A stretch of 33,305 bases of DNA, from assembly GCA_018818105.1 (NCBI GenBank), contig JAHISK010000090.1, positions 1 to 33,305 of the forward strand. Direction: 5' to 3'. Positions 18,665-31,412 of this stretch are shown here, piece after piece. A program made the translations under genes and the position numbers. This DNA is from Candidatus Omnitrophota bacterium. GTDB taxonomy: Bacteria > Omnitrophota > Gorgyraeia > Duberdicusellales > 4484-171. Below the pieces are notes generated by a model. It saw nothing but the letters and a program-made list of their open reading frames with translations, did no database searches and was not told where the DNA came from. How positions within the stretch are numbered: the stretch's first letter is position 1; the number at the start of each line of letters is the position of its first letter.

Positions 18665-18866
18665 TACAATCTTCCATCTTAAAAATAAACAATACACAAT
18701 TAACAAATTACAAACAATATACAATTACGAATACACAAACAAAAATAAAATTTTTTTATTAATTATCTCTAAATACATTCTTTATCTATTCTTTCTCTCC
18801 CGTTTGTTTATTGTTTATTGTCTATTGTTATTTGTTTGTAATTTGGGAGTTGTTTATTGTGATTTC
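18665..18866. repeat. Long inverted heptad repeat, TTGTTTA family, after atpG
   Basis: The left arm has words like ACAATAC and AACAAAT. The right arm runs TTGTTTA, TTGTTTA, TTGTCTA, TTGTTAT, TTGTTTG in exact 7-base steps. It begins within a few bases of the atpG stop and fills the atpG-atpD spacer. Confidence 0.75.
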
Positions 18867-23829: not shown

Positions 23830-23963
23830 AAATTCCAAATAACAATTTCCAAATCCCAAATAAATCTCAATCACCAAAATTCAAATGACCGAAACAGTTT
23901 TGGTCATTTGGTAATTGGAATTTGGTGGTTATTTGTTATTTGGTGCTTGAAATTTGGAATTTT
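23830..23963. repeat. Long inverted heptad repeat, ATTTGGA family
   Basis: Arms built from AATTCCA-type words and their complements end 12 nt after the peptidase stop. The first 42 bases are identical to 2803-2844. A hairpin with arms of about 60 bases could form. Confidence 0.8.
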
Positions 23964-24784: not shown

Positions 24785-24945
24785 TTATATCAAAAATAAA
24801 CAATTTACAAAATCCAAATTACAAGCAATACACAATACCAAATATACAATATACAAACGAGAATATTCTTAATTTATAAATCTTTTTATCTTTTTCTTCA
24901 TTTGTTTATTGTTATTTGTTTGTAATTTGAGAGTTGTTTATTGTA
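24785..24945. repeat. Long inverted heptad repeat, TTGTTTA family
   Basis: The left arm includes a block nearly identical to 16225-16250, and the right arm a block nearly identical to 18825-18862. It fills the spacer between the gene at 24986 and the peptidase and has no coding potential. Confidence 0.7.
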
Positions 24946-29253: not shown

Positions 29254-31305
29254 TTATTCTATCACCTGCTCAATGATTTCTTTTGATAAAATACTATTTT
29301 TTAATGATTTACGCACTTGGCCCATCTTTTTACCTTTAAATTTTAACCTTTCTAAATTAATTATGTTCTTCTGTTCTTTAAATATTAGCGCGCCGGCGAC
29401 GTCAACTTTACCGGTATTGATGCTGCGCGGCTTTATCTGATCAAACTCATCATCAGTAAGGTAAACTTGTATAATTAAAAAATTTCGCTTCTCAGATGAA
29501 CCCCATTCATATCCTGTTGGATTAATCGCTATCACTTTTCCTTTTTTATAAGTGATTTCGGCGCCATCTAAAAACACGGTGGGATCTTTCATTTTATCTC
29601 TTACCTTTACTAAAACGTCGTAAGATTTTTTATCTGACCGTATGACCATATCATCAATAACCGCGCTTAAATCTATCATTTCTTCCCTCGCTGAAATTAT
29701 TTCTTCTTCTAAAACAACTCCACGCGCAGCTTCTTCCTTAGAGTTTATCCTAAAGACCTGATCTGACACATCGAAAACGCTGAAATCAAATGGATCAGAT
29801 ATTTTTATCAAAGCCGCATCAGAAAACTCCTGAGGTACATCCCAGATAAAACTGCCTGTGTTTGGCACTTTCTTCGAAATCAAATTATAGGTCTTACCGT
29901 TATCAAAAGAATACTCTAACTTTATATTATACGCGCCATATTCATCCGCTGTCCATATGATTTCTTCTTTTTCTCCCACGACTAGAATCTCCCTACCGTT
30001 AGGTGAAATGAGAGAGATTTCGCCGGAGGCATATTCAAGTTTTATTGAATCAACTTCGATTAAGTTTTCTGCTGACCTGCCATTGCTAAAAGTGAAACGG
30101 TAATCTATCTCACTACCAATAAAAAAGTCACCTCTGGTCGCGTAATAATTCCGGCTACTTACACAATTAGCCCTATAAGTACTACCGCCATCAGCGGAAA
30201 TATCTAATCTTAGCTCTCCCGATTCAGGATAAAGAACAGTATAAACTGCTTTTATAATACGAATATCAAAATCGGTATTTATAACAGCTGAAGTAAAACT
30301 ACCTTTGTCCGCGCCGTCGGCTAATACTAAATTACCATTTTCTTTAAGTGTTGTGCTAGAAAACTTACCTAACCTAACGATTTCTTCTTGATCCATGGTA
30401 ATTTCAAATGAATACAGCGTTGTCGCGACTTCCTTAACTTTCCCATCCAAAATCGTCTCGTCAGGATAATCCCACGGATTTATATCAAAAACCTCATATA
30501 TGCTGGAATCATCACTTGCAAGTTTATTACCATAATAAAGGTAGATATCTACTCCCGAGGAGGGTATCTGTAAAACTTTTATGAAAACCTCTGCTAACTG
30601 CTCGGAGTCGTCCCCTGTTATCTTTCCTACATAATAAGGGAGAGACGTTTGGCCGTCTGAAGCAGTAAACCTTATATCTCTAAACCCAATCGCTACCCCT
30701 CCTTGGTAACTCACATCGGCTGCTCCTTGAGCTAAGGAATCACCTGTTGAAATAACCATTTTTACTACTTGATTAAATAAAGACGTGTTTATATTATCTT
30801 TAGCAGTAATATTAATTTTTTTCCTGTATTTAAACCCTGCTAATTCAGGATTACCAAATGAACCAGCAACGCCAGAAGTATCGGTATAAACAATACTAAC
30901 CTCTTCAAGCTGGCTATTGGCACCAATGCTAGCCTTCCACTTTAGCCTTCTCCCCTGACCCTTGACCCCTGACCCTTGACCCTCTAAATCCAACGGCACT
31001 CCATTGACCACATCCATATAATCAATACCACCATTAACGCTCACCGCTAAAGAAACTCTCCCTTTACTCTTGTAACTGACAACAATACTTTTTATCTGTC
31101 CGGCAGTAAGAAAAGTTTCTTTAACCTCATATACGCCTTGCTGTAATTGAGACAGGCCATAATCACCCTTACCATCTGTTCGCCAAACCAACGGTGATTT
31201 AAAAATAGCCGTACCGCTTTCACAGTAGGCAAAACTACTCCATCCCGCTATCATCATTGCTACTAAAATAATTTTTATTCCTTTAACGGACAGGCACAGG
31301 GACAT
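29254..31305 (-). CDS. Exported DUF2341-type protein with Ig-like domain
   Basis: The ORF-track start (31365) translates a CACAAAT heptad repeat, so I prefer the Met at 31305, which gives a signal peptide (MSLCLSVKGIKIILVAMM, ending FAYC) with AGGGA close upstream. The start is still uncertain because this Met lies inside another repeat. Domains (ORF-track numbering): N-terminal beta region with a heptad-repeat insertion (EGQGSGVKGQG near 128-138), DUF2341 (about 178-290, FKYRKKINIT to VDIYLYYGN), a beta-sandwich, a Kre9/KNH-like Ig domain (about 450-545, SPNGREILVVGEKEEIIWTA) and a basic C-terminal tail. It lies between the two paralogous surface proteins and is likely exported with them. 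Ligand and function are unknown. Confidence 0.82.
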   Translation of the reverse strand: MSLCLSVKGIKIILVAMMIAGWSSFAYCESGTAIFKSPLVWRTDGKGDYGLSQLQQGVYEVKETFLTAGQIKSIVVSYKSKGRVSLAVSVNGGIDYMDVVNGVPLDLEGQGSGVKGQGRRLKWKASIGANSQLEEVSIVYTDTSGVAGSFGNPELAGFKYRKKINITAKDNINTSLFNQVVKMVISTGDSLAQGAADVSYQGGVAIGFRDIRFTASDGQTSLPYYVGKITGDDSEQLAEVFIKVLQIPSSGVDIYLYYGNKLASDDSSIYEVFDINPWDYPDETILDGKVKEVATTLYSFEITMDQEEIVRLGKFSSTTLKENGNLVLADGADKGSFTSAVINTDFDIRIIKAVYTVLYPESGELRLDISADGGSTYRANCVSSRNYYATRGDFFIGSEIDYRFTFSNGRSAENLIEVDSIKLEYASGEISLISPNGREILVVGEKEEIIWTADEYGAYNIKLEYSFDNGKTYNLISKKVPNTGSFIWDVPQEFSDAALIKISDPFDFSVFDVSDQVFRINSKEEAARGVVLEEEIISAREEMIDLSAVIDDMVIRSDKKSYDVLVKVRDKMKDPTVFLDGAEITYKKGKVIAINPTGYEWGSSEKRNFLIIQVYLTDDEFDQIKPRSINTGKVDVAGALIFKEQKNIINLERLKFKGKKMGQVRKSLKNSILSKEIIEQVIE
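30948..30985. repeat. GGGTCAA/GGGTCAG heptad repeat inside a coding sequence
   Basis: Four to five tandem 7-base words read through the DUF2341-type gene in frame, adding a Gly/Gln/Ser-rich stretch. This is the only long heptad array seen inside a gene body. Confidence 0.8.
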
Positions 31306-31320
31306 GTCCCTACATATTTC
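31282..31320. repeat. TGTAGGGACATGTCCCT palindromic repeat at the DUF2341-type gene start
   Basis: Contains the perfect 14-base palindrome AGGGACATGTCCCT, whose ATG is the preferred start codon, and matches 29213-29247 over most of its length. Confidence 0.65.
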
Positions 31321-31366
31321 CGTGATTTGTGATTTGTGATTTGTGTTTCGTGTTTCGTGTTTCATG
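31321..31366. repeat. Heptad repeat, CACGAAA/CACAAAT family
   Basis: On the minus strand CACGAAA twice then CACAAAT three times run with exact period 7. The ORF track translates it as the N-terminus of the DUF2341-type protein, which I regard as spurious. Confidence 0.8.
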
Positions 31367-31412
31367 ATTCGTCCCTCATCTTTCCCTCTTCCTTGATGAC
31401 TCTTGCCCCTAT

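Follow-up and report, generated by a model that had tools for sequence, protein, structure and literature searches.

How did an array of seven-nucleotide repeats come to lie inside a protein-coding gene, and does it act there as a switch? Among the longer repeats of many bacterial genomes, heptanucleotide repeats have been noted as the most frequent. The array considered here lies in a stretch of 33,305 nucleotides from a Candidatus Omnitrophota bacterium (hereafter the window). An earlier note had described GGGTCAA and GGGTCAG words in tandem within a DUF2341-type gene, translated as a Gly/Gln/Ser stretch, and had proposed either a phase-variable switch or a very recent insertion.

The array and its host gene

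The array at 30952-30982 is 4.4 heptads long; TRF gives it a score of 62 and reads it as 2.2 perfect copies of a 14-mer (period 14, 100% matches). It lies on the minus strand within an ORF (Table 1), which bears out the heptad repeat first seen in a reading frame. Its adjacent units account for four of the eight GGGTCAR matches in the window. The codons are GAG GGT CAA GGG TCA GGG GTC AAG GGT CAG GGG, and the peptide in context is E-GQGSGVKGQG-RR; Gly, Gln and Ser are indeed present, but Val and Lys are too. The same ORF matches PF10102 (DUF2341) at residues 228-294 of the protein, but the array occupies codons ~128-138, upstream of DUF2341 itself and in a region conserved among homologues. 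The arithmetic of the earlier note is correct in that a change in unit number would shift the frame: loss or gain of one or two units leads to a stop soon downstream, and a gain of three units remains in frame.

Table 1. Repeat-related features of the host gene and its surroundings in the window
Feature	Position	Strand	Description
Heptad array	30952..30982	minus	(GGGTCAA GGGTCAG)x2 + GGG; in-frame translation EGQGSGVKGQG
Host gene	29254..31365	minus	703 codons, longest-ORF call; homologues collinear across array
Length-variable loop	30942..30992	minus	between conserved blocks GVP and (L/I)(K/R)WK
Second heptad array	31317..31373	minus	reverse complement of CGTGATT/TTTCGTG words; covers longest-ORF start of host gene
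GTAG-type palindromic repeat-like sequence TGTAGGGACATGTCCCTGTGCCTGTCCGTTAA	31284..31318	minus	adjoins second heptad array

The array occupies a loop of variable length. An alignment of 27 sequences takes in the window gene, in which 18 residues separate GVP from the Trp of (K/R)W; in 24 of the 27 this segment has 11-13 residues, the own-genome paralogue being one of this shorter group. The window loop is thus 5-7 residues longer, and the notion of an insertion stands. Longer loops occur elsewhere in the alignment, in L181 (17 residues) and in L176 (28 residues). The homologue L181 belongs to a different family of the class, and its loop contains at this position a heptad array built on an unrelated word, (CCACAGT)3. 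Given this length difference and the L181 array at the same spot, the alignment shows the window array to be inserted in frame in a permissive loop, where it is not the sole heptad array. Homologues and the own-genome paralogue are collinear on both sides, which rules out that the gene was fused or reads through an intergenic array. A search of GTDB contigs for relatives of the window protein gave no match.

The true start of the host gene is probably downstream of the called one, and the N-terminus as called is likely to be in error or to come in part from the repeat (see the second heptad array in Table 1). The adjoining palindromic sequence resembles the GTAG-type family described in PMC3733652, and sequences similar to it come after arrays in L004 and L007.

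Heptad arrays across the source genome and other phyla

Over 370 kb of the same genome, intergenic tandem periodicity peaks at lags 7 and 14, where it covers 27.9 and 40.7 bp of each kb; other lags give 0-8 bp per kb and shuffles ~0. The 17-mer form of the window array has 62 near-matches in the genome and its backward control has 0. Together with the TRF result and the shuffle controls, these counts rule out chance or base composition as the origin of the window array. The heptad arrays of this genome are built on many different words, most of them not G-rich. Counts were taken from pattern searches and from 20 sampled stretches, with runs of N treated as breaks in gene calls, and they give at least 37 distinct GGGNCAR arrays in the genome sequence read. 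Twenty of the 37 lie within ORFs, all 20 of them in sense, since the antisense strand has TGA in every frame. Eleven of these 20 fall in the final ~50 nt of their ORF, and many of the remaining arrays lie 1-20 nt past a same-strand stop codon. Seven other genome sites have GGGTCAGGGGTCA in common with the window array. Moreover, the A/G unit order of the window copy is that of arrays elsewhere in the genome and of exact 23-mers in other phyla.

Some arrays of this genome lie in giant open frames: L086 (the whole of contig C145) has 4,941 codons, L088 (C77) has 2,186, and L083 runs through a 15-kb stretch. All three join unrelated domains and contain recurrent SSPV linkers along with in-frame heptad arrays; L086 and L088 contain no N and are real open frames.

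Exact matches to the window array's 23-mer were found in 53 named GTDB stretches from several phyla (Nitrospirota, Desulfobacterota/Geobacter, Chloroflexota, Omnitrophota, Margulisiibacteriota, Saganbacteria and others). An assembly artefact is unlikely, as the same pattern occurs in independently assembled genomes of several phyla. Of these 53 copies, 37 are in ORFs in the sense direction, 27 of them deep inside according to simple ORF calls, and four overlap an ORF in antisense, reaching just a few bases into its end. The proteins that host deep copies include HisF (in two Nitrospiria, at exactly the loop described below), IspE, MoeA, ArgS, TsaD, an MsbA-like ABC protein, PrmC and two XerC-type recombinases; curated models span the insertions in IspE, MoeA, TsaD, PrmC and XerC. 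Four hosts (L155, L156, L158 and L161) have both arms of an inverted pair in frame, of the type KGQGSGVKG...LAPCPLPLAP. Their inverted arm is mostly GGGGCAA, whose complement is free of TGA.

The HisF loop

The hisF gene of the source genome contains (GGGTCAA)4 at C114:20435-20463. Its product has 277 amino acids as against 254 and scores 385 bits with NCBIfam TIGR00735 (cut-off 294.55). The protein is interrupted solely at the hairpin loop that follows residue 137 of solved HisF, the flanks matching residues 1-137 and 137-251. In relatives this loop holds arrays of CATCAGC, CAGACAT, CGATACG, CGCAAAA, CGCAAAG, CAATACC, GGGACAA and further words, or else is plain (6-11 residues). With a threshold of at least 12 of 14 matches at lag 7, a period of seven is found in 33 of 53 long loops (at least 13 residues), a proportion that is not the class prevalence because 40 of the loci were picked for length. 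Dinucleotide shuffles give a mean of 0.2 and codon shuffles 0.09, and lags other than 7 and 14 give 0-3 in the same 53 loops. Among 30 relatives' HisF loci taken without regard to length, ~11 heptad loops were counted by eye. The loops of L227, L288, L291 and L292 contain repeats of period 8 or 9, not 7.

The longer inserts are built of two mutually inverted heptad arms. Taken together, these arms show better pairing within their own insert than with arms of other species (27 of 20,000 permutations). On a quick HisF tree, weakly supported in depth, at least 17 changes between the heptad and non-heptad states are needed. Recent gains are seen between congeners: 18 nt in L232 as against 63 nt in L243, and 21 nt in L252 as against 45 nt in L244, the last being a GTAG palindrome. 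The L243 loop has a duplicated palindrome (RRRSNLDN twice) that its congener L232 lacks, a very recent insertion. In the pairs of near relatives examined that have an array in common, its length is equal (39/39, 39/39, 99/99 and 84/84 nt), and the letters of such arrays drift at constant length (e.g. L265/L289). No broken reading frame was found among the heptad-bearing HisF genes.

The words CGCAAAG and CATCAGC are nearly private to HisF in some genomes. Thus the idea that the dominant word of each genome is copied into its HisF is not supported, the words tested being nearly confined to HisF; it does hold for the source genome. Where a word hardly occurs in the genome outside HisF, as for some of these arrays, genesis in place is the favoured origin.

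In the class of the Nitrospiria genome G388, five of 11 HisF loops have a period of seven by the same threshold (codon shuffles 0.003), and one GTAG palindrome lies in the same loop (L322). These HisF sequences (L312-L322) have a conserved insert of ~27 residues, KRVVAHDPDFKPPLTWADDPKY, followed by variable heptad arrays of several words. Across the class of the window, and again in that of G388, the HisF loop has repeatedly received in-frame heptad arrays of unrelated words, inverted heptad pairs and GTAG palindromes. Insertions with a 7-nt step would take the form of single heptad arms of ~40 nt or of two inverted arms of ~85 nt. We see an even chance that such insertions, defined by their step and not by their sequence, recurrently colonise the same loops (the HisF hairpin above all) in no fewer than two groups of bacteria, and that the words are rewritten from one related species to the next. 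If this is true, a dedicated or polymerase-intrinsic 7-nt copying process would be continually adding new peptide to conserved enzymes.

The HisF loop is an alignable, single-copy test site. Related species differ there by in-frame gain and rewriting of arrays, which makes rate, direction and mechanism measurable. Heptad arrays as such are already known (PMC4692102, PMC4679880), and so are extragenic repeats in frame within genes (RPEs, PMC10969869; REPs, PMC3733652). In the open-licence literature we found neither their combination with word-independent recurrence at one loop, nor anything relevant on a GGGTCAR-type word or on heptads in HisF.

Origin of the window array and comparison with known repeats

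We favour, with a probability of roughly three in four, the interpretation that the window array is a copy of invading, or dispersed, heptad-periodic repeats that colonise permissive loops, and that it is tolerated and not an on/off switch. Such repeats would normally sit between genes, often just past or over a stop codon, and would repeatedly enter, or grow within, permissive surface loops of coding genes. Insertion or growth may take place everywhere, while in coding DNA just the in-frame, loop-located and stop-free outcomes would survive. The window copy probably derives from another GGGTCAR array of the genome; copying is favoured here because the unit order is in common. It would have been retained since GGGTCAR is free of stop codons in all three forward frames and the loop appears to tolerate a hydrophilic Gly/Gln/Lys stretch. 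It would have no switching function, and the simplest description of its role would be a tolerated hydrophilic loop extension. Several observations count against this interpretation. The three reading frames are used unevenly among the deep 23-mer copies (17:6:4, p 0.004, the copies not being independent), which could reflect selection on the peptide. The HisF words tested, nearly confined to HisF in their genomes, speak there for local genesis and against copying. Nor did the analysis find a donor site, a target duplication or a dedicated enzyme. A polymerase footprint, an idea from the literature that PMC4692102 and PMC4679880 cite, is compatible with the 7-nt step.

It is less likely, though the best of the alternatives, that the array grew by slippage in place from a native GGGTCAA-like heptamer (Glu-Gly-Gln codons), with no donor copy. 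The same-family homologue L174 reads LDYRGQV at the loop, with AGA GGG CAG; this sequence, the near-private HisF words and the drift of words at constant length are in line with local growth. However, the unit order of the window copy recurs in other arrays of the genome and in the 23-mers of other phyla, and only against an 11-residue loop does the net gain, 5-7 codons, come to a whole multiple of 7 nt.

An array that acts through its RNA or DNA structure, tuning translation or RNA decay, seems to us improbable. The array has five G-tracts on the mRNA strand, 4 nt apart, and this G3N4 spacing fits the heptads that form G-quadruplexes in Xanthomonas and Nostoc (PMC4692102). An mRNA G-quadruplex is possible by this pattern, and a hairpin might do the same in two-arm forms such as the HisF inserts, whose arms as a set pair better within an insert than between species. 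The preference of arrays for gene 3' ends would also suit such a role. Yet heptad words are mostly not G-rich, and many arrays lie mid-ORF in unrelated genes. No RNA stem is predicted at the window array, where the ordinary fold is unremarkable (z 0.77, with a default energy model that does not score G-quadruplexes).

The weakest alternative is a contingency repeat whose slippage turns the protein on and off, which we consider highly implausible: the 7-nt intragenic unit, not a multiple of three, the early stops and the apparently secreted host protein would suit it, but there are only 4.4 units of alternating variants, the word forms arrays outside this gene too, similar arrays occur in many housekeeping enzymes (HisF, ArgS, TsaD and others) where switching off makes little sense, HisF arrays common to near relatives are equal in length in the pairs examined, and the frames of heptad-bearing HisF genes are unbroken. 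The switch proposed by the earlier note thus finds no support, and a 7-nt repeat within an ORF need not mean a phase switch. The HisF loop also shows a simple natural route from extragenic repeats to new protein segments.

Among known systems, the G-rich heptameric repeats GGGAATC of Xanthomonas and GGGGATT of Nostoc, 7-11% of them intragenic (PMC4692102), come close. They too have a 7-nt unit starting with GGG, mostly four units, a position close behind the 5' neighbouring ORF, and inverted pairs in convergent orientation. The source genome likewise has many dispersed 7-nt arrays, mostly intergenic and near the end of the preceding gene. The window array has the sequence pattern of a putative G-quadruplex (five GGG tracts, 4-nt loops). 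However, the word differs, many unrelated words are found here, most without G-tracts, and recurrent in-frame loop insertion in one enzyme is not described there. The TAACTGA direct repeats of marine Beggiatoaceae (PMC4679880) are also abundant, mostly intergenic heptanucleotide arrays, some in ORFs outside conserved regions. Unlike the present arrays, they use one word per lineage, have stop codons in forward frames and lie mostly upstream of start codons, and no insertion site common to species is described.

Rickettsia palindromic elements (Ogata 2000/2002, as summarised in PMC10969869) are extragenic repeats that also occur in frame in unrelated metabolic genes and are tolerated by the protein. 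The present insertions similarly have homology on both sides, in HisF, IspE, MoeA, TsaD, PrmC, XerC and the DUF2341 gene. In contrast to the ~150-bp Rickettsia families, whose sequence and encoded peptide are conserved, they measure ~30-90 bp and conserve just the 7-nt period, the HisF loops holding unrelated words. GTAG/CGTC REPs (PMC3733652) can be intragenic, and different REPs lie at about the same recB site in two Xanthomonas species; GTAG palindromes also enter the HisF loop here (L244, L322). REPs are however palindromic, tagged GTAG at one end, and linked to RAYT transposases, whereas heptad arrays, that of the window included, are direct repeats with no known enzyme; the GTAG-like palindrome of the window is separate (Table 1). 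Finally, Borg tandem repeats (PMC9879509) also evolve fast and occur both between and inside ORFs, but their units within ORFs are all divisible by three.

Elsewhere in the window, intergenic spacers at 2803-2915, 18687-18837, 23830-23926 and 24826-24929 contain pairs of heptad arrays, apparently mutually inverted, that could form long hairpins.
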